Shown here: positions 9,552 through 57,638 of the stretch, in pieces
Numbering within the stretch: position 1 is the first letter of the stretch
Layout of the letters: each line of letters opens with the position of its first letter
Assembly (NCBI GenBank): GCA_019779905.1
Contig: JABAKE010000009.1
Location: 62,001-126,000, forward strand
Direction of reading: 5' to 3'
DNA: 64,000 nt
DNA from: Modestobacter lapidis
GTDB taxonomy: Bacteria > Actinomycetota > Actinomycetes > Mycobacteriales > Geodermatophilaceae
Made by a program: the position numbers and the translations under genes
Notes under the pieces: model-generated
What the model was told of the DNA's origin: nothing
Database searches by the model: none
What the model saw: only the letters and a program-made list of their open reading frames with translations

Positions 9552-11189
9552 GTGTCCGCGACCCTCCTCGCCCGTGGGCTGGCCGCCGGCCACGGCGTCC
9601 GAGCCCTCTTCTCCGACCTCGACCTCGTCGTCGCCCCCGGTGACGTGGTCGGCCTCGTCGGGGTCAACGGCGCCGGGAAGTCGACCCTGCTGCGAACCCT
9701 CGCCGGGCTGCTGCCGCCGGAGTCCGGTGCGGTGTCACTGAGCCCGCCGACGGCCACCGTCGGCTACCTGCCCCAGGAGGCCGAACGGCGGCCCGGCGAG
9801 ACGGTGGTCGACGCGCTGGCCCGGCGCACCGGCGTCGCCGATGCCCAGCGGGCCCTCGACGACGCGACCGAGGCGCTGACCGCGGGTGCGCCCGGCTCCG
9901 ACGACGCCTACGGCGACGCGCTGGAACGGTGGCTGGCACTGGGGGGCGCCGACCTGGCCGAGCGCGCGGAGGAGGTGCTGGCGTCGGTGGCTGCCGGCGT
10001 GGCGCCGACCGCGCCGATGACCGGCCTGTCCGGCGGGCAGGCGGCCCGGGTCGGGCTGGCCTCGCTGCTGCTGAGCCGCTACGACGTGCTGCTGCTCGAC
10101 GAACCCACCAACGACCTGGACCTGGCGGGTCTCGAGCAGCTGGAGCGCTTCGTCACCGGGCTGCGGACCGGAGTGGTGCTGGTCAGCCACGACCGCGAGT
10201 TCCTGGCCCGCACGGTCACCCGGGTGGTCGAGCTGGACCTGGCCCAGCAGTTGGTCCGGGTGCACGACGGTGGTTACGAGGCCTACCTCGTCGAGCGCGA
10301 GGTGACCCGCCGGCACGCCCGCGAGGACTACGAGGAGTACGCCGACACCCGGGCCGGACTGGAGGGCCGGGCGCGGATGCAGCGCAATTGGATGGCCAAG
10401 GGCGTGCGCGACTCGATCAAGAAGTCCAAGGACGGTGACAAGCACGTCAAGGCCCGCGACCGGGCGTCCTCGGAGAAGCAGGCCGCGAAGGCCAGGCAGA
10501 CCGAGCGGCGCATCGAGCGGCTCGAGGTGGTCGAGGAGCCCCGCAAGGAGTGGCAGCTGCAGATGGAGATCGCGGCGGCGCCACGGGCCGGTGCGGTGGT
10601 GGCCACCCTGCGCGGCGCGGTCGTGCGGCACGGGGACTTCCGGCTCGGGCCGGTCGACCTCCAGGTGGACTGGGGTGACCGGCTGGCGATCACCGGCGCG
10701 AACGGTGCGGGCAAGACGACCCTGCTGGCGGCCCTGCTCGGCCGGGAGACCCTCGCCGAGGGCTCGGCGGCGCTGGGCTCCGGCGTCCGGCTGGGGGAGG
10801 TCGACCAGGTGCGGGGGCTGTTCCTGGGGGACGAGCCACTGGCCGAGGCGTTCGGCGCCGTGGTGCCCGATCTGCCCGACCCCGACGTGCGCACCCTGCT
10901 GGCCAAGTTCGGGCTGCGGGCCGACCACGTGGTGCGGCCGGCCGGCACGCTGTCGCCGGGAGAACGGACCCGGGCGGCGCTGGCGCTCCTGCAGGCCCGC
11001 CGGGTGAACGTGCTCGTCCTGGACGAGCCGACCAACCACCTGGACCTGCCGGCGATCGAGCAGCTGGAGCAGGCGCTGGCCGACTACGCCGGCACGCTGC
11101 TGCTGGTGACCCACGACCGCCGGATGCTCGAGGTGGTCCACACGACCCGGCAGCTCGTGGTGGCCGGGGGGCAGGTGACCGAGATCTGA
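9552..11189 (+). CDS. ABC-F family ATPase
   Basis: A 545-residue soluble protein with two ABC domains and no membrane segment. Domain 1 has Walker A GVNGAGKSTLL, signature LSGGQAARVGLA and Walker B VLLLDEPTNDLDL. Domain 2 has GANGAGKTTLL, LSPGERTRAALA and VLVLDEPTNHLDL. A charged linker rich in Arg, Lys and Glu (around residues 245-340) joins them, as in ABC-F proteins that act on the ribosome (translation factors or antibiotic-resistance proteins). The GTG start gives the normal N-terminus. A strong hairpin follows the stop. Whether it is housekeeping or a resistance factor cannot be decided from sequence. Confidence 0.9.
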   Translation: MSATLLARGLAAGHGVRALFSDLDLVVAPGDVVGLVGVNGAGKSTLLRTLAGLLPPESGAVSLSPPTATVGYLPQEAERRPGETVVDALARRTGVADAQRALDDATEALTAGAPGSDDAYGDALERWLALGGADLAERAEEVLASVAAGVAPTAPMTGLSGGQAARVGLASLLLSRYDVLLLDEPTNDLDLAGLEQLERFVTGLRTGVVLVSHDREFLARTVTRVVELDLAQQLVRVHDGGYEAYLVEREVTRRHAREDYEEYADTRAGLEGRARMQRNWMAKGVRDSIKKSKDGDKHVKARDRASSEKQAAKARQTERRIERLEVVEEPRKEWQLQMEIAAAPRAGAVVATLRGAVVRHGDFRLGPVDLQVDWGDRLAITGANGAGKTTLLAALLGRETLAEGSAALGSGVRLGEVDQVRGLFLGDEPLAEAFGAVVPDLPDPDVRTLLAKFGLRADHVVRPAGTLSPGERTRAALALLQARRVNVLVLDEPTNHLDLPAIEQLEQALADYAGTLLLVTHDRRMLEVVHTTRQLVVAGGQVTEI

Positions 11190-11210
11190 GCCCCGGCCCG
11201 GGGACGACGA

Positions 11211-11240
11211 CGCCCGCCGGGCCGAGGGGCCGGGCGGGCG
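11211..11240. terminator. Hairpin between the ABC-F gene and tRNA-Arg
   Basis: CGCCCGCC at 11211 pairs with GGCGGGCG ending at 11240, with further GC pairing inside. It lies 21 bp after the ABC-F stop and 31 bp beyond the 3' end of the convergent tRNA gene, so it could end transcription from both sides. It has no T-tract, as is common in high-GC actinobacteria. Confidence 0.6.
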
Positions 11241-11271
11241 GTGTCGGTGTCGCGGCGAGCCCGGGCGTGGG

Positions 11272-11343
11272 TGCCCCCGGCAGGATTCGAACCTGCGCCC
11301 CTGCCTCCGGAGGGCAGTGCTCTATCCCCTGAGCTACGGGGGC
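11272..11343 (-). tRNA. tRNA-Arg (anticodon CCG)
   Basis: The reverse complement folds as a full cloverleaf. The acceptor stem GCCCCCG/CGGGGGC is perfect. The D-arm carries GCTC...GAGC, the anticodon stem CTGCC/GGCAG closes the loop CTCCGGA, and the T-arm GCAGG/CCTGC closes TTCGAAT. The anticodon CCG reads the codon CGG (Arg), which is heavily used in this GC-rich genome. The discriminator base is A, and CCA is not fully encoded. Confidence 0.95.
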
Positions 11344-11455
11344 TCTGGACCGCTGTGGTGCTGGTGGTGGGTGCTGGTGGTGCTCGTTCCGGCCCCGCTC
11401 TCGCGTGGCGCGGATGGCACGTTACCAGCCGGGCGACCTGCGCCCGGCGGGGGGC

Positions 11456-12160
11456 TCAGGGGGCCGGCAGCGGCGTGCCCCCGCGCTCCCGGATCATCGC
11501 CTCCATCGTGGTCGTCTCCGCGGCCTGGGTCGCGGCGATCGACTCCGCCAGGCGCTGGACGGCGGGCACCGTGGCGTGGTCCCGTGCGTACTCGGCCATC
11601 TCGAGACCACCTTGGTGGTGGCGGGTCATCAGCTGCAGGAACCGCACGTCGAAGGCGGTCCCGGACAGCTGCCGGAGCTCGGCGAGCTCCGTCTCGGTGG
11701 CCATGCCGGGCATGATCGCGCCGTCCGCCACGGCCGCGTCGTGGCCCGCGTGGTCCATGGAGTGCTCCATCGCACCGCCCATCCAGGCCATCACCTCACC
11801 GTCCGTGCGCGGCAGGTCCCACAGCGACAGCCAACCCTGCATCCGGCCGAGCTGGTTGGTCTGCGTGGCGGAGATGTCGAAGGCCAGCTGCCGCACCTCG
11901 GCGTCCTCGGTGCGCAGCAGGGCGAGGTTGGCCATCTCCACCGCCTGCCGGTGGTGCAGGGCCATGTCGCGGGCGAAGCCCGCCTCGACCGAGTCGCTGG
12001 CCGGTGGCCCGGTGCGGCCGATGCCCAGAGCCACGGTCAGGCCACCGCCGGCCAGCAGCAGCCCGACGGCGATGACCACGGACAGGCCGACGGTCAGCCA
12101 CCGGTTGCCGCTGCGCCCGCCTGGTCGGCCGGTCGTCGCGGCGCTGTCGGGATCGGTCAC
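11456..12160 (-). CDS. DUF305 membrane-anchored protein with two His-His motifs
   Basis: A 234-residue protein with an N-terminal hydrophobic anchor (about residues 20-48) and two DUF305 (ferritin-like helical) halves carrying [12 protein letters not shown] and [11 protein letters not shown]. Between them is a His/Met-rich loop ([10 protein letters not shown] and IMPGM). DUF305 proteins often occur with copper-handling genes, so an extracytoplasmic metal-related role is plausible. Its GTG start overlaps the TGA of the upstream DUF3105 gene (GTGA), so the two are translationally coupled. The stop is 112 bp from the tRNA gene. Function is not established. Confidence 0.88.
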
Positions 12161-12990
12161 GGGGCCGGGGTGGTGCTCTCGGCCGCGGGGGTCGGGGTGG
12201 TCGGTGCGTCGGTCGGGACGTCGGCCGAGCCGGCCGCCCGGCTGGCGTCACCGGCGACCAGCGGGTCGGCGATGAACGTCGGGTTCTCGCAGCTGGCGCC
12301 GACCTCGGGGTAGAACTCGTCGTTGTACGTCATGAAGTCCGCGTACTGCTCGACCCGCTCGTCGGTGGCCGAGTCGACCGTCAGCTGGTGGTTCCACGAC
12401 TGCAGGCTGATCGGCGCGGACTGGCCCTCGTACGGCGAGAGCATGAGGCCCGAGGTGCCGTCGACGAGGTCGGCCAGGACCTGCACGCCGTCCTCGTCCA
12501 CCTGCGCCGGGTCGTAGGTGATCCAGGTCGCGCCGTGCTCCATGGAGTGCACGGCGTTCTCGTGCCGGATGTCGACGTCGTAGACCGTGCCGGTGCAGTC
12601 GGCCCACTCGTAGTCGTGCGGTCCGCCGACCGGCGGGGTCTGCTCGTAGGCGACCGGCGTGGTCACGTGCTCCTGCCCGGCGGCGTAGTCGAACGTCTGC
12701 AGCCCCGCGATCTGGTCGGCGGCGGTGACCCGGCCCTCGTTGGCCTCGTTCACCTGTACGACGGCGTAGCCGATGACCGCGACGGCGAAGACCACGACGA
12801 CGATCGCGCCGATGATCATGCCCCACGGCCGCTGCGGGCTCACCACGTCGACCGGGGGCCGGGTCCGGCCCTTGCCGCCGGCCGGTGCCCGGGAGGCGCC
12901 GCCCGGGCGCTTCCCGCCGGCGCCGGCGGACCCCCCTCGGGAAGCGCCGCCGGGCGGGCGGCCGTTCTCGGGCTTGGGGTCCTTGGCCAC
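12157..12990 (-). CDS. DUF3105 single-pass membrane protein
   Basis: A 277-residue protein with a basic, Gly/Pro-rich cytoplasmic N-terminus (residues 1-55), one membrane segment (about 57-80) and an extracytoplasmic DUF3105 domain. The domain shows [19 protein letters not shown], the [18 protein letters not shown] motif and a [11 protein letters not shown] stretch. A Thr/Pro/Ala-rich tail ends the protein. The conserved His, Met and Cys residues (HSMEHG, DCTG, ASCENP) suggest metal binding, unproven. The GTG at 12990 is chosen because GAGGAG lies 5 bp upstream; the GTG two codons earlier has no room for a ribosome site. It is translationally coupled to the DUF305 gene. Confidence 0.87.
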
Positions 12991-13069
12991 TGCCACTCCT
13001 CGTTGCCGGGCGCACGCGCCACCGACCGTCTGCGTGCCGTGCCGGCAGGGGGCCGGGACAGCGGGAGCG

Positions 13070-13075
13070 AGTGTA
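13070..13075 (-). promoter_or_regulatory. Candidate -10 for the DUF3105/DUF305 pair
   Basis: On the minus strand TACACT matches TANNNT about 80 bp upstream of the DUF3105 start, in the 153-bp spacer shared with the divergent argS gene. No clear -35 is seen. Confidence 0.33.
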
Positions 13076-13131
13076 GGTCGCTGACCTGTGCCCTCCCTGG
13101 CACCGAGCCCGGGCCGGGCCGGGTGGATCAG

Positions 13132-13137
13132 TACGCT
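13132..13137 (+). promoter_or_regulatory. Leaderless-type promoter of argS
   Basis: TACGCT followed by exactly 6 bp and then the GTG start of argS is the classic actinobacterial leaderless arrangement (TANNNT, 6-7 bp, start codon). There is no Shine-Dalgarno before the GTG, in agreement. Confidence 0.5.
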
Positions 13138-13143
13138 CGTGCG

Positions 13144-14805
13144 GTGACACCCGAGCAGCTGCGCGACGTCGTCCGGTCCGCGGTAGCCGCGGCCGTGGAG
13201 GGCGGGACCCTTGCGGTCGCCGTTCCGGACGACGTCGTGATCGAGCGACCGAAGAACCCTGAGCACGGCGACTACGCCACCAACGTGGCCCTCCGGCTCG
13301 CCAAGGGCGCCGGTCGCCCGCCGCGCGAGGTGGCCGAGGTGCTGGCCGGCCGGCTGCGCGAGCACCCGGGGATCGCGACCGTCGACGTGGCCGGACCGGG
13401 CTTCCTCAACGTGACGTTCGCCTCGGGCGTGCTGGGCGCGATCGCCGTCGACGCGGTCACGGCGGGGGAGGGCTACGGGCGCACCGAGGTGCTGGCCGGT
13501 CAGCGGCTGAACCTGGAGTTCGTCTCGGCCAACCCGACCGGGCCGGTGCACATCGGCGGCACCCGGTGGGCCGCGGTCGGCGACGCGCTGGGTCGGCTGC
13601 TGACGGCCAGCGGCGCGCAGGTCACCCGCGAGTACTACTTCAACGACGCCGGCGCCCAGATCGACCGGTTCGCCGGCAGCCTGCTGGCCGCGGCGCACGG
13701 CGAGCCGGTGCCCGAGGACGGGTACGCCGGGAACTACATCGGCGAGATCGCCGGGCAGGTCGTCGCGGCCGAGCCCGGAATCCTGGAGCTGCCGGTGGCC
13801 GAGCAGCAGGAGCGGTTCCGGGTGCTCGGGGTCGAGCTGATGTTCGCCGAGATCAAGCGGACGCTGGCCGACTTCGGCGTCGTCTTCGACGTCTACTTCA
13901 GCGAGCGGACGCTGCACGAGACCGGCGCGCTGGAGAAGGCGATCGGCCGGCTGCGTGAGCAGGGCCACGTCTACGAGGCCGACGGCGCGGTCTGGCTGCG
14001 CACCACCACGTTCGGCGACGACAAGGACCGGGTGCTGGTCAAGAGCGACGGCGAGACGACGTACTTCGCCGCCGACTGCGCCTACTACCTCGACAAGCGC
14101 GAGCGCGGCTTCGACAAGGTCGTGATCATGCTGGGGGCCGACCACCACGGTTACATCGGCCGGTACAAGGCGCTGGTGGCGGCGTTGGGCGACGACCCGG
14201 ACACCAACCTGGAGATCCTGATCGGTCAGCTGGTCAACCTGCTCCGGAACGGCGAGCCGCTGCGGATGAGCAAGCGGGCCGGCACCGTCGTCCTGCTGGA
14301 GGACCTGGTGGAGGCGGTGGGCGCCGACGCCGCCCGCTACGCGCTGGCCCGGGCGTCGGTCGACCAGCAGATCGACCTGGACCTGGACCTGTGGAGCCGG
14401 CAGACCAACGACAACCCGGTCTTCTACGTCCAGTACGCCCACGCCCGGATCTCCTCGCTGCTGCGCGGCGCGGCCGATCTGGGGCTGGCGCTCGGTGCGG
14501 CCACCGACGTCGAGACCGGGCAGCTGGCGCACGCCCGGGAGAGCGACCTGCTCCGGGCCATCGCGGAGTTCCCGCGGGTGCTCTCCGGCGCCGCCGAGCT
14601 GCGCGCCCCGCACCGGGTGGCCCGCTACCTGGAGGAGCTGGCCGGCACCTACCACCGCTTCTACGACTCCTGCCGGGTGCTGCCACGCGGCGACGAGGAG
14701 GCCACACCTGTGACCACTGCCCGGCTCTGGCTGTGCGCGGCCACCGCCACCGTCCTGCGCAACGGCCTGGCCGTGCTCGGCGTGCACGCCCCGGAGCGGA
14801 TGTGA
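13144..14805 (+). CDS. argS: Arginyl-tRNA synthetase
   Basis: A 553-residue class I synthetase of normal length. It has the ArgRS N-terminal Add-1 domain, the HIGH-type signature [19 protein letters not shown], the KMSKS-type signature [11 protein letters not shown], and the C-terminal DALR anticodon-binding domain ending [13 protein letters not shown]. It charges tRNA-Arg in the cytoplasm. The GTG at 13144 is placed directly after a leaderless-type -10 box. Its stop overlaps the lysA start (GTGA), making argS the first gene of the argS-lysA-hom-thrC-thrB cluster, an arrangement also found in mycobacteria and corynebacteria. Confidence 0.97.
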
Positions 14806-16295
14806 GGGCGCACCCCGCGGGGCCGATGCACGGCAACATCGCCCCGCCGGCGGCCGCCGGGCCCGCCCCGGCCGACCTCGGCGCCCTCGACCCGCAGGTC
14901 TGGCCGCGCTCGGCCCGCCGCGTGGACGGCGAGCTGCAGCTGGGTGGCCGCCCGGTCACCGACCTGGCGCGCGAGCACGGGACGCCGCTGTTCGTGCTCG
15001 ACGAGGGCGACTTCCGCGGCCGCGCCGCCGACTTCGCCGACGCCTTCGCCGGCGCCGACGTGCACTACGCCTCCAAGGCGTTCCTCTGCGGGCAGGTCGC
15101 CCGGTGGATCGCCGAGGACGGCCTGCACCTGGACGCGTGCAGCGGCAACGAGCTGGCCCTGGCGCTGGCCGCCGGCTTCCCGGCCGAGCGGATCGCCCTG
15201 CACGGGAACAACAAGTCCCTGGTCGAGCTGCAGCTGGCCGTCGACGCCGGCATCGGCCACGTCGTACTGGACTCCTTCGACGAGATCGACCGGCTGGCGC
15301 CGCTGGCCGCTGGCCGGGTCGCCGCCGGCGGGGCGCCGGTGCCGGTGCTGATCCGGTCCACGGTCGGCATCGAGGCGCACACCCACGAGTTCATCGCCAC
15401 CGCCCACGAGGACCAGAAGTTCGGTTTCTCGCTGGCCACCGGCGATGCCCTGGCCGCGGCCGTGCGGGTCTGCGACTCCCCGGCGCTGGAGCTGGCCGGG
15501 CTGCACAGCCACATCGGCTCGCAGATCTTCGACACCGCCGGGTTCGAGGCCGCCGCGCACCGGGTGGTCGGGCTGATGGGCGACGTGCGCGACGCCACCG
15601 GCCGGGTGCTGCCCGAGCTGAACCTGGGCGGCGGCTTCGGCATCGCCTACCTGCCCGACGACGACCCGGTCGCAGCCGGGGACGTCGCGGCCAGGCTGCG
15701 CGCCGTCGTGGCGGCCGAGTGCGCCGAGCTCGGCCTGCCGGTCCCGCGGCTGGCCGTCGAGCCCGGCCGGGCGATCGCCGGCCCGGGCACCGTCACCCTG
15801 TACGAGATCGGCACGATCAAGCCCGTGCGGCTGGGTGCCAGCGGCGCGCCGGGCACCCCGCTGGTGCGCAACTACGTCTCGGTGGACGGCGGGATGAGCG
15901 ACAACATCCGCACCGCCCTCTACGACGCCAGCTACACCTGCGTGCTGGCCAACCGGCACTCCGACGCCCCGCCCGCGCTCTGCCGGGTGGTGGGCAAGCA
16001 CTGCGAGAGCGGCGACATCCTGGTCCGCGACCTGTGGCTGCCCTCGGACGTGCAGCCCGGCGACCTGCTCGCAGTGGCCGCCACCGGGGCCTACTGCTGG
16101 TCGATGGCGAGCAACTACAACTACCTGCTCAAGCCCCCGGTGGTCGCCGTCCGGGACGGCGTCGCCACCGAGCTGGTCCGACGGCAGACACTGTCCGACG
16201 TGTTCGCCCTCGACGCCGTCCTCGCCGACGTGCCCGCGCCCTCGCCAGCGATCGACCAGCCGGCCCCCGAGCACGCCGCCGGAGCCCGGTCATGA
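14802..16295 (+). CDS. lysA: Diaminopimelate decarboxylase
   Basis: A 497-residue PLP enzyme catalysing the last step of lysine synthesis (meso-diaminopimelate to lysine). The PLP lysine is in [10 protein letters not shown], the phosphate-binding glycine loop is [11 protein letters not shown], and the partner-subunit active-site cysteine motif is CESGDIL. The start GTG at 14802 overlaps the argS stop by four bases and gives the N-terminus [12 protein letters not shown], which fits actinobacterial LysA proteins that begin with AHPAGPRH-like residues. A GGAG lies 5-9 bp upstream. An ATG at 14826 is the alternative. Its stop overlaps the hom start (ATGA). Confidence 0.96.
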
Positions 16296-17605
16296 GCGCG
16301 CCGCTCAAGGTCGCGCTGCTGGGCTGCGGCACGGTGGGCAGCGCGGTGCTGCGGCTGCTGTCCGAGCAGGCCGCGGACCTCACGGCCCGGATCGGCCGGC
16401 CGGTGGAGGTCGCCGGCGTCGCGGTGCGCCGGCCCGACCGGCACCCGGAGGTGCCCGCCGAGCTGCTCACCACCGACGCGCACACGCTCGTCACCCGACC
16501 CGACGTCGACCTGGTGGTCGAGGTGATCGGCGGCATCGAGCCGGCCCGCACCCTGCTGCTGGCCGCGATGGCGGCCGGCAAGTCGGTGGTGAGCGCCAAC
16601 AAGGCGCTGCTGGCCGACGAGGGCGTGACCCTGCACACCGCCGCCGCCGACGCCGGGGTGGACCTCTACTACGAGGCCGCCGTCGCCGGGGCGATCCCGT
16701 TGCTGCGCCCGCTGCGGGAGTCGCTGGCCGGTGACCAGCTGCGCCGGGTGGTGGGGATCGTCAACGGCACGACCAACTACATCCTGTCCTCGATGGCCGA
16801 GACCGGTGCCGGGTTCGGTGAGGCGCTGGCCGAGGCGACCGAGGCCGGGTACGCCGAGGCCGACCCCACCGCCGACGTCGACGGGTTCGACGCCGCCGCC
16901 AAGGCCGCGATCCTCGCCTCGCTGGCGTTCCACTCCGCGGTGCACGCCTCGGACGTGTACCGGGAGGGCATCTCGGCGGTCTCGGCCACCGACGTCGCCC
17001 GGGCCGCGGAGATCGGCTGCACGGTCAAGCTGCTGGCCATCTGCGAGCGGGTGCCGTCGAGCACCGGCTCGCCCACCCACCCCACGGGCGATTCCATCGC
17101 CGTCCGCGTGCACCCGGCGATGATCCCGACCTCGCACCCGCTGGCCGCGGTCAACGGGGCCTTCAACGCGGTGTTCGTCGAGGCCGAGGCGGCCGGGCAG
17201 CTGATGTTCTACGGGCAGGGGGCCGGCGGCGAGCCGACCGCGAGCGCGGTGCTCGGCGACCTGGTCGCCGTCGCCCGCAACCGGGTGTCCGGGGTGGCCG
17301 GCCCGAACGCGACCGGCTACGCCGCACTGCCGACCCGGCCGATGGCCGAGACGCCCACCCGGTACCACGTGAGCCTCGACGTGGCCGACAAGCCGGGCGT
17401 GCTGGCCACCGTGGCCCAGGAGTTCGCCGCCCAGGGGGTCAGCATCGCCACCGTCCGGCAGGACGGGCACGGCGACGCCGCGACCCTCGTCATCGTCACC
17501 CACTCCGCTCCCGACGCCGCGCTCGCGGCGACCGTGGAGCGGCTGCGCGGGATGGCCGCCGTCCGGGGTGTCACCAGCGTGCTGCGTGTGGAGGGATTGG
17601 CGTGA
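16292..17605 (+). CDS. hom: Homoserine dehydrogenase
   Basis: A 437-residue monofunctional homoserine dehydrogenase. The NAD(P)-binding site is [17 protein letters not shown], the catalytic domain carries [14 protein letters not shown] and the conserved [16 protein letters not shown], and a C-terminal ACT domain (from about residue 355, [17 protein letters not shown]) should give feedback control by threonine. It reduces aspartate semialdehyde to homoserine. The ATG overlaps the lysA stop and the stop overlaps the thrC start, both by four bases. Confidence 0.97.
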
Positions 17606-18708
17606 GCGAGATGCAGCGACCGACCGCGGGGGTGCCCGCCGCGTCGCCGTACTGGCCGGGGCTGATCGAGGCCTACCGGGACCGGCTGCCGGTGGGCCCG
17701 GACACCCCGGTGGTGACGCTGCAGGAGGGCGCCACCCCGCTGGTGCCCGCCCTCGAACTGTCCCGCCGCACCGGCTGCGACGTCTGGCTCAAGGTCGAGG
17801 GTGCCAACCCGACCGGGTCGTTCAAGGACCGCGGGATGACCATGGCGATCACCAAGGCGGTGGAGGAGGGGGCGCAGGCGGTCATCTGCGCCTCGACCGG
17901 CAACACCAGCGCCAGCGCCGCGGCCTACGCCGCGCGCGCCGGGCTGATCTGCGCCGTCCTCGTGCCGCAGGGGAAGATCGCCACCGGCAAGCTGGCCCAG
18001 GCGCTGGTGCACGGCGCGAAGCTGCTGCAGGTCGAGGGCAACTTCGACGACTGCCTGGCGTTGGCCAGCAAGCTGGCCATCGACTACCCGGTGAGCCTGG
18101 TCAACAGCGTGAACCAGTACCGCATCGAGGGGCAGAAGACGGCGGCGTTCGAGATCGTCGACGTCCTCGGGGACGCTCCGGACGTGCACTGCCTGCCGGT
18201 CGGCAACGCCGGCAACATCACCGCCTACTGGCAGGGCTACCGCGAGTACTGCACCACGTCGGCGGCCCCCGGCCCGGCCACCCGCACCCCGCGGATGTGG
18301 GGCTTCCAGGCCGCGGGCGCTGCGCCGATCGTCACCGGCCAGGTCGTGGATTCCCCGAGCACGATCGCCACGGCCATCCGGATCGGCAACCCGGCGTCCT
18401 GGACCAAGGCGCTGGATGCCCGGGACTCCTCCGGAGGGCGGATCGACGCGGTCACCGACCGGGCGATCCTGGCCGCCTACCGGCTGCTGGCCCGCACCGA
18501 GGCCGTCTTCGTGGAACCGGCGTCGGCCGCCTCGGTGGCCGGGCTGCTGCAGGTGGCGGCGGCCGGCGGGCTCGAGCCGGGCCAGCGAGTGGTCTGCACG
18601 GTCACCGGCAACGGACTCAAGGACCCGGAGTGGGCCATCTCCGGCGCCCCGGCGCCGGTCACCATCCCGGTCGACGCGGCCGCTGCGGCCGCGCAGCTCG
18701 GTCTCTGA
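17602..18708 (+). CDS. thrC: Threonine synthase
   Basis: A 368-residue PLP enzyme of the short (type II/actinobacterial) threonine synthase class. The PLP lysine is in [11 protein letters not shown], the substrate loop is [20 protein letters not shown], and the phosphate-binding glycines are [12 protein letters not shown]. It converts O-phosphohomoserine to threonine. The GTG start overlaps the hom stop (GTGA). It is followed 4 bp later by thrB, giving the usual hom-thrC-thrB order. Confidence 0.97.
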
Positions 18709-24791: not shown

Positions 24792-25447
24792 CAGACTGCG
24801 GCCTCGTGGCCGACGTCTACGACTGCAGCGACCCCGACCAGCGCACCGCGGGCCTGGCCGCCGCCGCCGCCGCGCTCTCCCGGGGCGACCTGGTCCTCCT
24901 GCCCACCGACACCGTCTACGGGGTGGCCGCCGACGCCTTCACCCCCTCCGCGGTGACCAAGCTCCTCGCGGCCAAGAATCGGGGGCGTTCCATGCCCGTC
25001 CCGGTGCTGGTGGGGGAGGCCGCCACCCTCGCCGGGCTGGTCACCACGGTCCCACCGGTGGCCCACCAGCTGGCCGAGGCGTTCTGGCCCGGCGGCCTGA
25101 CCCTCGTCGTCGAGCACGCGCCGTCGCTGGCCTGGGACCTCGGGGACGCCGAGGGCACCGTCGCGGTCCGGCTCCCCGACGACGACGTGACCCGGGAACT
25201 GCTCCGCCACACCGGTCCGCTCGCCGTCTCCAGCGCCAACCGCTCCGGCCGCCCGGCCGCGACCACCGGCCAGCAGGCGGACTACCAGCTGGGCGAGCAC
25301 GCCGCCGTCGTCCTGGACGACGGCTCTCGGGAGGGCTCGGCGGCCAGCACCATCGTCGACTGCACCGGCCCCACCCCCCGGGTGCTGCGGGTCGGCGCGA
25401 TCGAGGTCGACCGCCTCCGCGAGGTCGTGCCGGAGATCACCGACTGA
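24788..25447 (+). CDS. tsaC: L-threonylcarbamoyladenylate synthase (TsaC/YwlC type)
   Basis: A 219-residue YrdC-fold enzyme that makes threonylcarbamoyl-AMP for the t6A37 modification of tRNAs reading ANN codons. Visible signatures are LVLLPTDTVYGVAADAF, KNRGRSMPVPVLVG, FWPGGLTLVVEHAP, the RLPDDDVTRELL stretch and LAVSSANRSG. It is the short form without the extra Sua5 domain. The GTG at 24788 overlaps the prmC stop (GTGA); a GTG at 24806 is an alternative. The prfA-prmC-tsaC order matches mycobacteria (Rv1299-Rv1301). After its stop comes the tandem repeat array. Confidence 0.94.
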   Translation: MTDCGLVADVYDCSDPDQRTAGLAAAAAALSRGDLVLLPTDTVYGVAADAFTPSAVTKLLAAKNRGRSMPVPVLVGEAATLAGLVTTVPPVAHQLAEAFWPGGLTLVVEHAPSLAWDLGDAEGTVAVRLPDDDVTRELLRHTGPLAVSSANRSGRPAATTGQQADYQLGEHAAVVLDDGSREGSAASTIVDCTGPTPRVLRVGAIEVDRLREVVPEITD

Positions 25448-25473
25448 GCACAGGGCGCCCCTGCGGGCCTGGA

Positions 25474-25895
25474 GGGTCCCGCTGTCATTGCACGCAGCGG
25501 CTTCGCACCGCTGGGGGACGATGCCGGTCACCGATGTCGGGACCGGACCGCGGCGTCGTCCGGCAGGACGACTGTGGGAGGACAGCGCGGGCCCGGAGAG
25601 TCCCGCTGTCATCGCACGAAACGGCTCAACGGCGCGGGGGACGGCTCCGGTGACCGATGTCGGGACCGGGCCACGGTGTCGTCCGGCAGGACGACTGTGG
25701 GAGGGCGGCGCGGGGCCGGAGGCTCCCGCTGTCATCGCCCGCAGCGGCTTCACGCCGCTGGGGGACGATGCCGGTCACCGATATCGGGACCGGACCACGG
25801 CGTCGTCCGGCAGGACGACTGTGGGAGGACAGCGCGGGCCCGGAGGGTCCCGCTGTCATCGCACGAAACGGCTCAACGGCGCGGGGGGACGGCAC
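25474..25895 (+). repeat. Tandem array of ~124-bp units with conserved RNA-like secondary structure
   Basis: Four units begin at about 25474, 25598, 25721 and 25845 (periods 124, 123, 124); the fourth is truncated. They alternate in type (A, B, A, B). Units A share a CAGCGG/CCGCTG hairpin; units B have ACGAAACGGCTCAACGG there. Each complete unit closes with a long stem (unit 1: GGGTCCCGCTGTC at 25474 with GACAGCGCGGGCCC ending 25594, one bulged C) and contains CCGGT/ACCGG with an inner CCG/CGG hairpin, and GTCGTCC-GGCA-GGACGAC (25555, 25678, 25802). In unit 2 the right closing arm changes to GGCGGCG, which still pairs on the plus strand through U-G wobbles. The periods are not all multiples of three, arguing against coding. 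No protein, insertion-sequence or CRISPR signature is present. Confidence 0.85.
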
Positions 25896-25926
25896 GTGGC
25901 CGCGGTGCGGCCCGCGAGGGTCGCAG

Positions 25927-25943
25927 TGTTATAGCGATACCGT
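25927..25943 (+). promoter_or_regulatory. AT-rich element, possible glyA promoter
   Basis: TGTTATAGCGATACCGT is a conspicuous AT-rich spot in very GC-rich DNA, 85 bp before the glyA start. It contains TACCGT (25938-25943), a TANNNT match. I see no good -35 box. The rest of the spacer up to glyA holds no other gene-like signal. Confidence 0.3.
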
Positions 25944-26027
25944 GGGGCGACAGCCGCGCGCCCGACGTCGGCGCACGCGGGCGCCCGTACCGACGCATCG
26001 TCGTCCAGCCCTTGGAGTGCAGCCGCG

Positions 26028-27362
26028 ATGAGCACCCCCACCGAGACCCCCTACTGGGGGCCGGACTTCAACGCCCTGGCGGCCTTCGACCCGGAGATCT
26101 CCGGGGTGGTCCTCGACGAGCTCGACCGGCTCCGCGGCGGGCTGCAGCTGATCGCCAGCGAGAACTTCACCAGCCCGGCCGTGCTGGCCGCGCTGGGCAG
26201 CACCCTGTCGAACAAGTACGCCGAGGGGTACCCCGGCCGGCGGTACTACGGCGGTTGCGAGGTCGTGGACCGTGCCGAGGAGATCGGCATCGCCCGGGCC
26301 AAGGAACTCTTCGGCGCCGAGCACGCCAACCTGCAGCCACACTCGGGGGCCAGTGCCAACCTGGCCGCCTACGGCGCCTTCCTCTCCCCGGGCGACACCC
26401 TGCTGGGCATGGCGCTGCCGCACGGCGGGCACCTCACCCACGGCACCAAGGTGTCCTTCTCGGGCAAGTGGTTCAACGCGGTGCAGTACGGCGTCGACCC
26501 GAAGACCGAGCACATCGACTATGACCAGGTCCGTGACCTGGCCCGCGAGCACCGGCCCAAGCTGATCGTCTGCGGCGGCTCGGCCATTCCGCGGCTGATC
26601 GACTTCGCCGCCTTCCGGGAGATCGCCGACGAGGTCGGCGCCATCCTGATGGTCGACGCCGCCCACTTCATCGGCCTGGTGGCCGGCAAGGCCATCCCGT
26701 CCCCGGTCCCGTACGCCGACGTCGTGACCTTCACCACGCACAAGGTGCTGCGCGGCCCGCGCGGCGGCGCGATCGTCTGCCGGGCCGAGCACGCGAAGGC
26801 CATCGACAAGTCCGCCTTCCCGATGATGCAGGGCGGCCCGCTGATGCACGCCGTCGCCGCCAAGGCGGTCAACCTCAAGGAGTGCCTGACCCCCGGGTAC
26901 CAGGCCTACGCCCGCCAGGTCATCGCCAACGCCCAGGCGCTCACCGAGGGGCTCGCGGCCGAGGGGCTCCGCCCGGTCGCCGGCGGCACCGACACCCACC
27001 TCGCGCTGCTCGACCTGCAGCAGGTGACCGACACCTCCGGCGCCACCGTCACCGGCAAGGTCGCCGAGGCCCGCTGCGACGCGGCCGGGATCGTGCTGAA
27101 CAAGAACGCCATTCCCTTCGACCCGCAGCCGGCCTCGGTCGCGTCCGGCATCCGCGTCGGGAGCCCGGCGGTGACCACCCAGGGAATGGTGGAGTCCGAC
27201 ATGAAGTCGATCGCCTCACTGATCGGCAGCGCCATCCGCGACACCGACGGGTCCCGCACGGCGGAGATCGTCGCCGGCGTCCGCGACCTGGTCGGCGCCC
27301 ACCCTGCCTATCCCCAGCCCGCCCCGCCGACTGCCTCCCCGGCGCCGCACCGGACCGCCTGA
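26028..27362 (+). CDS. glyA: Serine hydroxymethyltransferase
   Basis: A 444-residue PLP enzyme interconverting serine and glycine with tetrahydrofolate, the main source of one-carbon units. Family motifs are GLQLIASENFTS, NKYAEGYPGRRYYGGCE, the PLP lysine at about residue 239 in TFTTHKVLRGPRGG, and IRVGSPAVTTQGM. Start ATG with TTGGAGTG upstream. A Pro-rich tail of about 20 residues ends it. Its place between tsaC and wecA is not the mycobacterial order, so it looks inserted here. The upstream tandem array may lie in its 5' region. wecA begins 4 bp after its stop. Confidence 0.96.
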   Translation: MSTPTETPYWGPDFNALAAFDPEISGVVLDELDRLRGGLQLIASENFTSPAVLAALGSTLSNKYAEGYPGRRYYGGCEVVDRAEEIGIARAKELFGAEHANLQPHSGASANLAAYGAFLSPGDTLLGMALPHGGHLTHGTKVSFSGKWFNAVQYGVDPKTEHIDYDQVRDLAREHRPKLIVCGGSAIPRLIDFAAFREIADEVGAILMVDAAHFIGLVAGKAIPSPVPYADVVTFTTHKVLRGPRGGAIVCRAEHAKAIDKSAFPMMQGGPLMHAVAAKAVNLKECLTPGYQAYARQVIANAQALTEGLAAEGLRPVAGGTDTHLALLDLQQVTDTSGATVTGKVAEARCDAAGIVLNKNAIPFDPQPASVASGIRVGSPAVTTQGMVESDMKSIASLIGSAIRDTDGSRTAEIVAGVRDLVGAHPAYPQPAPPTASPAPHRTA

Positions 27363-36337: not shown

Positions 36338-36340
36338 TAG

Positions 36341-36399
36341 AAGGACCTCCCTGCCCCCCACCGCTCGCACCGCTCGCGGCGGGACCCTGCAGGGAGGCC
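36341..36399 (+). repeat. Intergenic palindrome family, copy 1 (after atpD)
   Basis: Starts AAGGACCTCCCTGC three bases after the atpD stop and ends GCAGGGAGGCC. The outer arms pair over 11 bp with one bulged A; the core CCCCACCGCTCGC / GCTCGCGGCGGG forms an inner stem. The same design recurs at seven other sites in the window. Confidence 0.8.
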
Positions 36400-36827: not shown

Positions 36828-36889
36828 AAGGAGCCCGCTGCCCCCCACCGCTCGCAAGCTCGCGGCGGGACCCTGCACCGGGGCCCGCC
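36828..36889 (+). repeat. Intergenic palindrome family, copy 2
   Basis: AAGGAGCCCGCTGCCCCCC followed by ACCGCTCGCAAGCTCGCGG and GGGACCCTGC. The core is conserved; the outer arms are partly degenerate. It begins 2 bp after the stop of the small hypothetical gene. Confidence 0.75.
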
Positions 36890-37449: not shown

Positions 37450-37854
37450 ATGACCACCGCGATCCTGGTGCTCGTCGGGTTGCTGGTGGTCGGCCTCGTG
37501 GCGGCCTTCCTCCTGCGCCGGAGGTTCCTGCTCTCCGGGCTGGGCGCGGTCACCATGTGGCTGCGGCCGGCCGGTGCACCGCGGTGGTCCGTGGGCGTCG
37601 CGTGGTACTCCGGCGACATGCTGCTGTGGTACCGCGGGCTGTCCCTGTCGGTCCGCCCCAACCAGCGGCTGTGCCGGTCGGAGTTCCAGGTCGACGCCCG
37701 GCGGCGGCCGACCCCCGGTGACCTGTCCCTACCGGCCGAGAGCGTCGTCCTGACCTGCCGGACCGGCGCCGGCCCGCACGACCTGGCCATGGATTCCTCG
37801 ACGGTGACCGGGTTCCTGTCCTGGATCGAGTCGGCTCCGCCGGTCGACCGCTGA
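37450..37854 (+). CDS. DUF2550 membrane-anchored protein
   Basis: A 134-residue protein with one N-terminal membrane helix (about residues 4-22) and a small domain with WSVGVAWYSGDMLLWYRG and a CRSEFQVDARRRP motif, matching DUF2550, the conserved neighbour downstream of atpC in actinobacteria (Rv1312 type). Function is unknown. It lies 36 bp after atpC and is followed immediately by two palindromes, across which pduO converges. Confidence 0.85.
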   Translation: MTTAILVLVGLLVVGLVAAFLLRRRFLLSGLGAVTMWLRPAGAPRWSVGVAWYSGDMLLWYRGLSLSVRPNQRLCRSEFQVDARRRPTPGDLSLPAESVVLTCRTGAGPHDLAMDSSTVTGFLSWIESAPPVDR

Positions 37855-37954
37855 AGGACCCCCTTGCCCCCCACCGCTCGCAGGCTCGCGGCGGTTGGAG
37901 GACCCCGTCCTCCTCACCCCTCGCAAGCTCGGGGCGAGCCTCGGGACGGGGCCT
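37855..37954 (+). repeat. Intergenic palindrome family, copy 3 (tandem double element)
   Basis: A truncated type I element (AGGACCCCCTTGCCCCCC, then ACCGCTCGCAGGCTCGCGG, to 37894) begins at the first base after the DUF2550 stop (37852-37854). A complete type II element follows: AGGACCCCGTCC at 37899-37910 pairs with GGACGGGGCCT at 37944-37954, with one bulged A. It lies between convergent genes and could terminate both. Confidence 0.8.
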
Positions 37955-37987
37955 GAGGGGCCGTTCCAGACTGACGCTGGGTTCGCG

Positions 37988-38610: not shown

Positions 38611-38665
38611 AGAGGGACCCGGCTCCCCACCCCCCGCACGCTCGCGGTGGGACCCCGCGGCGCGG
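38611..38665 (+). repeat. Intergenic palindrome family, copy 4 (between divergent genes)
   Basis: AGAGGGACCCGGCTCCCCAC, then CCCCCGCACGCTCGCGGTGG and GACCCCGCGG. It is the only copy not attached to a stop codon: it fills the space between the -10 boxes of divergent pduO and murA, where both -35 regions must lie. Confidence 0.7.
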
Positions 38666-38671
38666 CCACCG

Positions 38672-40465: not shown

Positions 40466-41242
40466 ATGGACGAGACCCCCGGCGCGCCCCGGGTCGAACG
40501 CGACGGCGACACGGTCCGGATCACCATGGCCCGCGGGCCCAAGCGCAACGCCCTCTCCCGCGAGCACCTGACCCAACTGCTCGCCGCGGTCACCGCGGCG
40601 GGCGAGAGCGATGCGACCGGGATCGTGCTCGGTGGCGAGGGGCCGGTCTTCAGCGCCGGCCACGACTTCGCCGACGTCGCAGGCCGGCCGGTGGCCGAGG
40701 TGCGCAGCCTGCTGCTGCTGTGCACCGAGCTGATGGAGACCCTGCAGTCCGTTCCCCAGGTCGTGGTGGCACGGGTGCACGCGCTGGCCACCGCGGCCGG
40801 CTGCCAGCTGGTGGCCTCCTGCGACCTGGCCGTGGCGGCGGAGTCGGCCGGCTTCGCCGCCCCGGGCGGCAAGGGTGGCTGGTTCTGCCACACGCCGATG
40901 GTGGCCATCGCCCGCAACGTCGGGCGCAAGCGCGCGATGGAGCTGGCGCTGACCGGTGACGTCATCGATGCCCGGACGGCGCTGGACTGGGGGCTGGTCA
41001 ACCGGGTGGTGCCCGGCGACCAGCTGGATGCCGCCGTCGACGATCTGCTGGCCCGGGCCACCCGCGGCTCGCGGGCGAGCAAGGCGTGGGGCAAGCAGAC
41101 CATGTACGCCCAGCTGGACCGGCCCGAGCGCGATGCCTACGGCGTCGCCGTCGAGGTGATGGCCGCGGCCAGCCAGCTGGACGGCGCCCGCGAGGGGATG
41201 AGCGCGTTCCTGGGCAAGCGCCACCCGGTCTGGACCGATTAA
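40466..41242 (+). CDS. Enoyl-CoA hydratase/isomerase family protein
   Basis: A 258-residue crotonase-fold protein. Oxyanion-hole and substrate regions are seen in FSAGHDFADVA and ALATAAGCQLVASCDLAVA, followed by the C-terminal helices with GLVNRVVPGDQLDAAV. It resembles the ECHDC3-like subgroup, with the active-site Glu positions not clearly conserved (FAAPGGKGGWFCHTP replaces the usual F.xPE segment), so the exact reaction is uncertain. GGAG lies 7 bp before the ATG. Its TAA stop overlaps the start of palindrome copy 5. Confidence 0.82.
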   Translation: MDETPGAPRVERDGDTVRITMARGPKRNALSREHLTQLLAAVTAAGESDATGIVLGGEGPVFSAGHDFADVAGRPVAEVRSLLLLCTELMETLQSVPQVVVARVHALATAAGCQLVASCDLAVAAESAGFAAPGGKGGWFCHTPMVAIARNVGRKRAMELALTGDVIDARTALDWGLVNRVVPGDQLDAAVDDLLARATRGSRASKAWGKQTMYAQLDRPERDAYGVAVEVMAAASQLDGAREGMSAFLGKRHPVWTD

Positions 41243-41295
41243 GGACCCCCTGCCCCCACCGCTCGCAAGCTCGCGCCGGGTCCCTGCGGGGGGCC
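41241..41295 (+). repeat. Intergenic palindrome family, copy 5
   Basis: AAGGACCCCCTGCCCCCACC, then GCTCGCAAGCTCGCGCC and GGGTCCCTGCGGGGGGCC. The first two bases are part of the TAA stop of the crotonase gene. Outer arms GGACCCCCTGC and GCGGGGGGCC pair with a bulged A. The remaining 180 bp up to the symporter gene hold no gene that I can recognise. Confidence 0.8.
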
Positions 41296-41477
41296 TGCGG
41301 GTGAGACAGCGCACACCGGGATGGTCCAGGTGGCGCCTCGCATTGTCCTTCATGTGCAGAACCTGTGGGGCCTCACCCGGTGCCTGGTCGTGGACCTCGG
41401 GCGCGTGACGGCCGGCCGCTGAGCGCGGTCGCCGCCCACCGTCCCGACCTCCACACCCCGCCCGGAAGGCACCCCTC

Positions 41478-56180: not shown

Positions 56181-56239
56181 GGCCTCCCTGCGGGCCCCCA
56201 CCGCGAGCTCGCGAGTGGTGGGGGGCAGGGAGGTCCTTC
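56181..56239 (-). repeat. Intergenic palindrome family, copy 7 (minus orientation)
   Basis: On the minus strand it reads AAGGACCTCCCTGCCCCCCA, then CTCGCGAGCTCGCGG, then GTGGGGGCCCGCAGGGAGGCC. It begins at the TGA stop of the metallopeptidase gene, again in the orientation of the gene it follows, and it also lies between convergent genes. Confidence 0.8.
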
Positions 56240-57638
56240 AACAGGCGGACGGGCCCTCGAACACCCCGGTGCGGAAGACGTCGACCAGCTGGAAACCGGT
56301 CAGTCCGCTGTCGGCGAGCACCGCGGGGTCGGTGCTGTACTCGAGCAGGAACTGCACGCTCTCGTCGGCGTCCCCGGGGGAGATCGTGATGACCTGGCTC
56401 TCGCCCCCGAGGACGAACGCGGTGAAGGCACCGGCCAGGCAGGCGGCGGAGCGGATGGCGTCCCGGCCCTGGGTCGACTCGCCGAGCTGGTCGCGCGCGG
56501 CCAGGCTGTAGGGGATCGCCACCGCGGTCAGGACGGCGTAGTCGCCGAACTCCGCGTACAGCGGGCGCGTCAGGTCGGTCTCGTCGAAGGCGACGACGTC
56601 GTCGGCGGCACAGAAGAGCAGGTCCAGATCGGGGTCCTGGCCATCGCAGCCGGGTGCCTGCCGGGAGAACGGTTCGATCGCCGGGGGCTGGAAGTCCCGG
56701 CCGAGTTCGGCGAACGCCGCCTCCCAGAATTCGGGGAGCGCCTCGGGAACGAAGATCCCAAGCGTCTCCTGGTAGGAGGCGTTGCCGCCGGCGAGCGCCT
56801 CGGCGCGGCCGGAGAACCTGTCCTGCGTGTAGGGCCGGTTCTCCCCGAACTCGTCCCGGCAGCTGGTCGGGCCTTCGTCGAAGCCCTGCTGGAAGGCCGA
56901 CACCCGGTCGAAGTAGGAACCGTGCGCCTCCTGTTCCCGGGTGCTGGTGCCCACCGGGTCGCGCAGCAGCAGGTAGCCGCGGAGCACCTCGTCCAGCTCG
57001 GCCGCCCGGATCGTGTTGTGCGGCGCCTCGCCGTCGGCGACCCAGGCGGTCCAGGCGCCGGCGAAGCAGTCGGCCTGGGTCTCGATCGCGATCGACTGCG
57101 GGGTCGGGTACCCCACCCGGCCCTGGACCGCGTGGCCGAACTCGTGCGCCATGACCAGCGCGGGGATGAACCGGCCGTACTGCTCGGCGAGCTCGCGCAG
57201 GAAGGAGCGGTCGTAGGAGATGGCGTCCCCGCCCGGGTACTGGTTGCTCGGCAGGCAGTAGGCGGCGTTGTCGACGATGGACTCCGGTGGCTGGCCGCAA
57301 CCGATGTGCCCGCCCGGATAGGCCGCCGGGTTCACGTCGGCCGGGTCCACCGAGTAGTAGCCGCCGGTCAGCGGGGTGAACCCGGTGCCGAAGGTGGGCT
57401 CGAACTGCTCGGCCCAGTAGGTGTTCAGGTCGGTCAGCGCATTGCGGGCGAGCCGGTCGACCTCGTCGTCGACGGCCCCGATGATGGGGAACTCCTCGAT
57501 CGCGACCGCACCGACCGGCGCCGACGCCGGGCTCGCGCTCCCCGGCACCAGCACCACGGTGCAGCCGGTGAGCGTGCTGAGCACGGTGGCGCCGGCGAGG
57601 GCGGCCCCGGCCAGCAGGCGGCGGAACGAGGAGGGCAT
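56238..57638 (-). CDS. Putative neutral zinc metallopeptidase, lipoprotein
   Basis: A 466-residue extracytoplasmic protein with a lipobox (LTGC, Cys26) and a zincin domain of the YpfJ/neutral zinc metallopeptidase type: HEFGH at 165-169 in VMAHEFGHAVQGR and a probable third ligand in IETQADCFAGAW. A second half of about 230 residues is less conserved. The ATG at 57638 has GGGAG just upstream. Conserved Cys pairs suggest disulfides. Substrate is unknown; such proteins may process envelope proteins. Confidence 0.9.
   Translation of the reverse strand: MPSSFRRLLAGAALAGATVLSTLTGCTVVLVPGSASPASAPVGAVAIEEFPIIGAVDDEVDRLARNALTDLNTYWAEQFEPTFGTGFTPLTGGYYSVDPADVNPAAYPGGHIGCGQPPESIVDNAAYCLPSNQYPGGDAISYDRSFLRELAEQYGRFIPALVMAHEFGHAVQGRVGYPTPQSIAIETQADCFAGAWTAWVADGEAPHNTIRAAELDEVLRGYLLLRDPVGTSTREQEAHGSYFDRVSAFQQGFDEGPTSCRDEFGENRPYTQDRFSGRAEALAGGNASYQETLGIFVPEALPEFWEAAFAELGRDFQPPAIEPFSRQAPGCDGQDPDLDLLFCAADDVVAFDETDLTRPLYAEFGDYAVLTAVAIPYSLAARDQLGESTQGRDAIRSAACLAGAFTAFVLGGESQVITISPGDADESVQFLLEYSTDPAVLADSGLTGFQLVDVFRTGVFEGPSAC

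Follow-up and report, generated by a model that had tools for sequence, protein, structure and literature searches.

A strongly covarying repeat dispersed at gene ends in Geodermatophilaceae, with a tandem array before glyA in Modestobacter lapidis

The intergenic region upstream of glyA in Modestobacter lapidis contains a tandem array of hairpin-forming units. We found that these units belong to a repeat that is dispersed over the genome, that has strongly covarying stems, and that lies preferentially between convergent genes. We think it probable that the array arose when one copy was amplified locally, in tandem, from this repeat, which resembles REP sequences in its placement at gene ends and which would have been moved in trans and kept as a 3'-end hairpin. 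Nothing that we observed needs a link between the array and glyA. Throughout, the window is the whole 64,000-nucleotide stretch of DNA that was analysed (contig JABAKE010000009.1, positions 62,001 to 126,000); features are given by their positions in it, and those of the array and its two neighbouring genes are all on the plus strand.

Results

The array before glyA

The array separates two genes that lie on the same strand, 580 bases apart: a gene with a Sua5/YciO/YrdC domain (24806-25447; Pfam PF01300, E 2.4e-47) and glyA, which encodes serine hydroxymethyltransferase (26028-27362; PF00464, E 2.1e-144). TRF places it at 25463-25891, with a period of 124, 3.5 copies and 84% matches. A first-pass annotation of the window, made from the sequence alone, had described a 124-bp array with periods of 124, 123 and 124, and comparison of the units, which start at 25463, 25587, 25710 and 25834, gave the same values. 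A repeated protein is out, as that annotation had argued, since the unit is not a multiple of three. It had also described two alternating sub-types. Units 1 and 3 are identical at 115 of 124 positions (93%) and units 2 and 4 at 54 of 58 over their shared part (93%), compared with 83-85% between types A and B; the A-B-A-B order is therefore correct.

Each unit matches the covariance model of the family described below. Unit 1 (type A, 25463-25586; match 25444-25577, 51.5 bits) is truncated at its left end and lacks the greater part of the left arm of hairpin B. Unit 2 (type B, 25587-25709; match 25572-25700, 80.6 bits) and unit 3 (type A, 25710-25833; match 25695-25824, 65.8 bits) follow. Unit 4 (type B, 25834-25929) gives the strongest match (25819-25929, 105.5 bits, E 1.6e-18) and closes with the 3' portion typical of the family, so it is not simply truncated. 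A search of the window alone with default filters found two of the four units and missed units 1 and 3. While the core coordinates first reported for the array stand, its end had been set too early: the family match continues to about 25929 and takes in a terminal hairpin C (GCGGCCC-GCGA-GGGTCGC, 25907-25924) with a G.T pair common to many copies. The 3' border of the array can be placed next to GCGATACC by comparing the glyA loci of G022, G011 and G015 by eye; the 5' end of the repeat is not sharply defined. Two further details of the first-pass annotation are present in the sequence. The short hairpin GTCGTCC-GGCA-GGACGAC occurs three times between units (25555-25572, 25678-25695 and 25802-25819), and its copy at 25678 aligns to the model at the position of hairpin C. 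The change from GACAGCG to GGCGGCG is found before unit 3.

Searches for known features returned little. Rfam, at gathering score, found one tRNA in the whole window and nothing else, and there was no match in 25440-26030 up to E 5, in line with the earlier failure to match the array to the glycine, SAM, THF or B12 riboswitches; known riboswitches and other Rfam families were accordingly rejected. Scanning 25400-26040 for GC-rich hairpins followed by a T-run gave no U-run terminator at the window's copy, and a simple sigma-70 consensus scan of the region, which does not cover other promoter types, gave no promoter-like site. Folding energy alone cannot choose the strand, because the z scores of single units are mixed (plus, -1.7, -0.5 and -5.2; minus, -3.9, -0.8 and -5.6).

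Anatomy and covariation of the repeat

The model (R1, 110 positions) was built from a MAFFT alignment of 38 copies (A1) that had not been fitted to structure. The repeat has a core of about 110 bases and is longer with its variable 5' leader. By eye, the plus-strand consensus of hairpin B is CTGTGnGAGG-nnnnn-GCGGGnCC-GGA-GGnTCCCGC-nnnnn-CATCGCACG. On its 3' side follow a linker (CGAARCGGCTCAnCG), a variable stretch, a second linker (GGGGACGGCnCCTGGCCGCGGTG) and hairpin C (consensus nCGnTCC-loop-GGAnCGn), after which ATGTCAC or ATGTGCAC is often seen, again by eye. The two linkers pair with each other in a near-invariant stem of five pairs. Within the array, the hairpin B copy before unit 2 (CTGTG...CACG), placed from its covarying helices and the sequence, spans 25572-25618, with equivalents at 25695-25742 and 25819-25866.

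The first-pass annotation had proposed a long-range closing stem of 10-13 bp around each unit. This stem consists of the right arm of one hairpin B and the left arm of another. The local hairpin GACAGCG-C-GGGCCC-GGA-GGGTCC-CGCTGTC recurs in single copies without a next unit. Because single copies permit local pairing only, whereas tandem arrays permit both arrangements, hairpin B is the conserved structure, and the arms of the proposed closing stem are those of this local hairpin.

Hairpins B and C covary strongly, and the third stem, formed by the linkers, is near-invariant. In A1, 91% of cells pair, and 135 double-changed cells still pair, against 51 in shuffled and 22-41 in slid controls; double-sided change affects 16 pairs, against 13.4 in shuffles (2 of 500 shuffles reach 16). 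Among 66 distinct copies from the source genome, in an alignment fitted to the model, 92.6% of cells pair and 321 are double-changed, compared with 107 shuffled and 29-78 slid. The covariance-aware look at the stems that had been suggested thus yields compensatory changes above both kinds of control.

Two further features were considered for the 5' side and dropped. For a hairpin A before hairpin B, stems of at least six pairs occur in 64% of 74 upstream stretches and in 50% of shuffles, and we make no claim for it; a possible 5' motif, ACGGAC, is present in only 11 of the 74. Of the 82 places found with the profile, 61 have a full copy; truncation affects the 5' side in 11 and the 3' side in 4. 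This asymmetry is only a hint, because the four 3'-truncated places adjoin or sit in multi-unit clusters and the profile is stronger in its 3' half.

The strand that carries the fold

Pairing on the plus strand tolerates G.T and not A.C, and pairing on the minus strand does the reverse. G.T outnumbers A.C by 214 to 29 in the 66 source-genome copies and by 235 to 33 in 87 copies from named genomes, an excess inflated by the shared ancestry of copies and by a model that accepts G.U. These counts support the plus strand as the structured one, as the first-pass annotation had it. Much of the excess comes from three pairs with a G.T consensus, without which the counts are 68 to 28 and 72 to 32, and A.C exceeds G.T at 7 of 27 pairs in the source-genome copies and at 3 of 27 in the named-genome copies. 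For hairpin C alone, which can be aligned with little ambiguity, the counts are 19 to 2 and 12 to 1, respectively. One of its pairs is A-T in 26 source-genome copies, G-C in 21 and G.T in 17, with A.C absent.

The orientation of neighbouring genes does not appear to set this bias. Hairpin C could be parsed in 64 of 79 copies, and with small numbers and shared ancestry the G.T to A.C counts are 7 to 0 in 13 copies antisense to both neighbours, 4 to 2 in 14 copies sense to both, and 7 to 0 in 31 copies between convergent genes. The element thus seems to conserve its fold on one strand regardless of the reading direction of the host genes. Since the bias holds in copies that point against both neighbours, it is better explained by a strand-specific step in the life cycle of the element itself than by a strand-specific function in the mRNA of the host.

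Dispersal in genome, genus, family and order

A BLAST search with the array hit 22 places in the source genome; among 59 genomes taken as relatives, and counting the source genome, 34 gave matches. Model R1 found 81 places in the source genome at E ≤ 0.01, all four window units among them, and at least 79 at E ≤ 0.001. The repeat occurs in 23 of 23 genomes of the source genus, in 1-79 copies at E ≤ 0.001; these counts are minima and may be low, as the best 150 of about 10,000-18,000 first-look candidates were scored per genome. A search of related genomes for single units had been suggested with the array, and both BLAST and the covariance model turned up such scattered copies. Copy number differs sharply within the genus, from one match in G014 to at least 79 in the source genome (G000), which offers a natural comparison for finding the mobilising enzyme.

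Beyond the genus, the repeat was found in 101 of 112 Geodermatophilaceae genomes, representing 9 of 12 genera. An even sample of the order, comprising 150 genomes, gave 18 genomes with a match, all of them Geodermatophilaceae; the 20 genomes listed among the 132 without a match all belong to other families. Only 34 and 25 candidates per genome were scored in the family and order searches, under stricter filters, so these results speak to presence and not to copy number. When named genomes were scanned with a 20-base core, 79 of the 80 loci listed were in records of Geodermatophilus, Blastococcus, Modestobacter or Klenkia, which NCBI taxonomy places in one family, or of Geodermatophilaceae, and all 79 of these loci carry an R1 match at E ≤ 0.001. 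A core-scan match in Burkholderiales (L151) has no model match and was taken as chance, as were weak, short BLAST matches in other families (G035, G039, G047 and G055; E 4e-5 to 4e-4), three of which are listed without a model match. In the genomes sampled, the dispersed repeat was found in a single actinobacterial family only.

Placement relative to genes

Genes were called by a home-made codon-usage script, and 79 of the 81 matches were placed; two near contig ends, outside the stretches analysed, were left out of the context counts. The placed copies form 62 clusters, 54 of a single unit and 8 of two to four units. Tandem growth is not special to glyA, since four other clusters in G000 have three to four units each and periods of about 84-132 bases (C338:197084-197530, C383:17753-18159, C361:161818-162191 and C17:73856-74214).

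Clusters are found above all where genes converge. Their flanks are convergent in 31 cases, antisense to the element on both sides in 14, sense on both in 11 and divergent in 4, with one neighbour missing in 2. As background we took 648 gene pairs in 680 kb of contiguous DNA, consisting of two contigs known to hold copies and the window. Convergent flanks are strongly enriched (31/60 against 101/648, p 1e-9), also within the background sample itself (8 of 15 element pairs against 93 of 633 others, p 0.0007), and the depletion of divergent pairs is not significant (4/60 against 103/648, p 0.06). In 46 cases the 3' neighbour faces the element, and in 37 of these its stop codon falls within -11 to +13 bases of the model end. 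Three of the 62 clusters touch the interior of called frames, two lying well inside (C110:52269 and C353:147337) and one almost wholly overlapped (C338:198350); in the background sample, none of 23 profile matches has its midpoint more than 60 bases inside a gene.

Gene ends in this genome often fold strongly without the repeat. Scored against 20 mononucleotide shuffles each, element-free spacers of 50-220 bases have z below -2 in 49% of 41 convergent, 17% of 172 co-directional and 5% of 57 divergent cases. Strong hairpins are thus common at gene ends, and the repeat occupies that niche. Convergent spacers that carry an element are not unusually stable (median z -0.91, n = 7, against -1.83, n = 41, without one).

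These placements bear on the idea that the copies form a multi-copy family of independently expressed small RNAs used in trans. Such RNAs would account for the strong covariation, the conserved linkers and the plus-strand bias, which persists where a copy runs against both flanking genes (7 to 0). Self-contained units would also be expected to show no orientation bias among co-directional neighbours, and none is seen (11 sense, 14 antisense; p 0.69). However, the hairpin C end is pinned to the stop codon of the facing gene, copy number varies from 1 to 79 within one genus, tandem and truncated copies occur, and the consensus scan, limited as it is in promoter type, found no promoter-like site at the window's copy. 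We consider this explanation improbable.

Orthologous sites and turnover

At three orthologous sites, copies come, go, multiply and flip. The site before glyA has a model match at 15 of 21 loci and none at E ≤ 0.001 in 6 of 21. Two copies stand in tandem in G007 and four in the source genome; G001, G004 and G013 carry a reversed copy beside the Sua5 stop codon in addition to a forward copy. By eye, family sequence is absent from G011, G015 and G022, and in several other loci nothing but the 3' portion, hairpin C included, is seen. The array is most similar to the copies that other species have at this site (87-90% identity), whereas its best paralogue in the source genome reaches 84% over 122 bases. 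This speaks for an inherited glyA copy with local tandem growth, and the distance to that paralogue gives no sign of recent movement.

Downstream of the array, at 25936-25945, lies a block, GATACCGTGG, that 19 of 21 species share whether or not they carry the element, G011, G015 and G022 among them. It lies 70-95 bases from glyA in 18 species and 148 in one, and from this comparison it is probably a glyA promoter element of non-consensus type. The first-pass annotation had put forward a tandem regulatory RNA for glyA. This would be a cis-acting riboswitch or attenuator that was tandemly amplified. The array does lie between the upstream gene and glyA, its fold covaries, the favoured strand is the sense strand of glyA, and most glyA loci have a model match. 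Yet the same repeat forms clusters at 62 places, here and elsewhere, while six glyA loci have no match and three hold a reversed copy; the conserved GATACCGTGG block stands between the element and glyA, and Rfam offers no match. On this evidence, it is very unlikely that the array is a regulatory RNA of glyA.

The second site follows purA (PF00709), with a match at 14 of 21 loci: 11 antisense to purA only, one sense only (G016), and two with both orientations (G000, and G003 with a weak antisense match). Where the element is lacking, other hairpins are seen by eye, for example in G005, G014, G017, G018 and G022. In two species (L280 and L288) the place just after purA that the element takes elsewhere is filled by almost identical long palindromes (CGAGATCTGCGTTCTCGG...), possibly a third dispersed gene-end hairpin. 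The third site has a copy in the source genome only, at 1 of 20 loci. The gene there gave no Pfam match at E ≤ 0.001 and is probably the end of PriA. Loci without the element hold other palindromes in some cases and, by eye, no obvious one in G012, G013 and G017.

The window also contains a second dispersed hairpin repeat (AAGGACCCCGCTGCCCCC...), at 36340-36399, 36828-36885, 37852-37962, 38612-38668, 41241-41302 and 56181-56240. With 40 first-look places scored per genome, it has at least 40 matches in 21 of 23 genomes of the genus and 17 and 4 in the other two. In the 680 kb plus the window it forms 46 clusters, 17 of them between convergent genes.

Discussion

What moves the repeat, and what keeps it at gene ends? 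We propose that a trans-acting enzyme moves or once moved the repeat by recognising the fold of one strand, by analogy with REP repeats. Copies may then be tolerated or kept at gene ends, where their hairpins could serve either neighbour as 3'-end structures, in ending the transcript or in protecting the mRNA, and tandem arrays such as the one before glyA would arise by later duplication. Among the possibilities raised by the first-pass annotation, an expanding mobile palindrome comes closest to this proposal. The unit is indeed scattered over the genome and the family, and its description as a mobile palindrome is partly supported.

The repeat could instead be purely selfish, with a strand-specific fold that serves its own movement, sitting where insertion is harmless and giving the host nothing. 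The plus-strand bias in copies that point against both neighbours, the lineage-specific copy numbers and the presence or absence of copies at orthologous sites are all consistent with such an element. However, diverged copies still fold well, and at several orthologous gene ends the repeat is replaced, by eye, by other hairpins, as if something were needed there. We regard a purely selfish repeat as unlikely and favour a mobile repeat whose hairpins are also of use at gene ends.

As for the enzyme, the source genome has no match to Y1 transposases (PF01797) in a search that was positive in 5 of 14 control genomes, and none to reverse transcriptases (PF00078), where 3 of 14 controls were positive. 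Enzymes of the source genome are therefore rejected as a source of RAYT-driven REP movement or of retro-copying. One could go further and picture a repeat that moves through a one-strand fold, as RNA or single-stranded DNA, with the help of an enzyme from outside the Y1 transposases and reverse transcriptases, that docks its 3' hairpin at stop codons, and whose copies are portable, interchangeable gene ends that lineages swap for unrelated hairpin modules at the same sites. We offer this fuller picture as speculation and think it unlikely in its entirety.

The repeat matters in several ways. It supplies many natural replicates of one covarying structure at gene ends, up to tens per genome. One can thereby ask directly whether dispersed repeats behave as portable 3' ends, and how REP-like repeats without a known transposase are mobilised. 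In practical terms, gene finders and RNA surveys of Geodermatophilaceae should mask or annotate it, as a tandem copy beside a gene may be mistaken for a riboswitch.

How does the repeat compare with known systems? Like intrinsic terminators, it places hairpins right after stop codons and between convergent genes. Unlike them, the window's copy has no T-run in the interval scanned, and its copies share conserved linkers, which are not known from ordinary intrinsic terminators. MITEs and other non-autonomous insertion elements are short, non-coding and multi-copy, as is the repeat; unlike a MITE, the repeat has no simple terminal inverted repeats that we noticed, and no target duplication is established for it. 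Among the titles and abstract openings listed by searches of an open-access library, none describes repeats of this kind in these bacteria. PMC12306157 names three Actinomycetota species in a table of the genomes it scanned, and the main text of that paper does not contain Geodermatophil-, Blastococcus or Modestobacter; the same holds for the main texts of two surveys of bacterial non-coding RNA (PMC11109978 and PMC8632094). A paper on Geodermatophilaceae (PMC9686282) mentions palindromic repeats only as CRISPR.

The closest parallel is with REP repeats and BIMEs. According to PMC3733652, these are dispersed palindromes tagged with GTAG or CGTC, mostly intergenic and predominantly between convergent and co-directional genes. 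They lie very near gene 3' ends, where the termini of some supply the stop codon of the neighbour; dimers are common, and CGTC REPs occur without a dedicated transposase (PMC3733652). The repeat described here is likewise dispersed, palindromic, intergenic, near gene 3' ends and enriched between convergent genes. It differs in size and build, since it comprises some 110 bases, in which several hairpins covary and linkers are conserved, whereas a REP is a palindrome of 20-40 bases (PMC3733652), and by eye, without a count, we noticed no unpaired GTAG or CGTC tail. It differs as well in setting, for it occurs in Actinobacteria, a word absent from the main text of PMC3733652, and its source genome, unlike those with RAYT-mobilised REPs, has no Y1 transposase. 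Because size and Y1 transposase do not agree, we do not file the repeat as a REP, even though its placement is REP-like. We describe it instead as a new, large and strongly covarying variant of REP-like gene-end repeats, with a putative function at 3' ends and a presumed mobilisation in trans.
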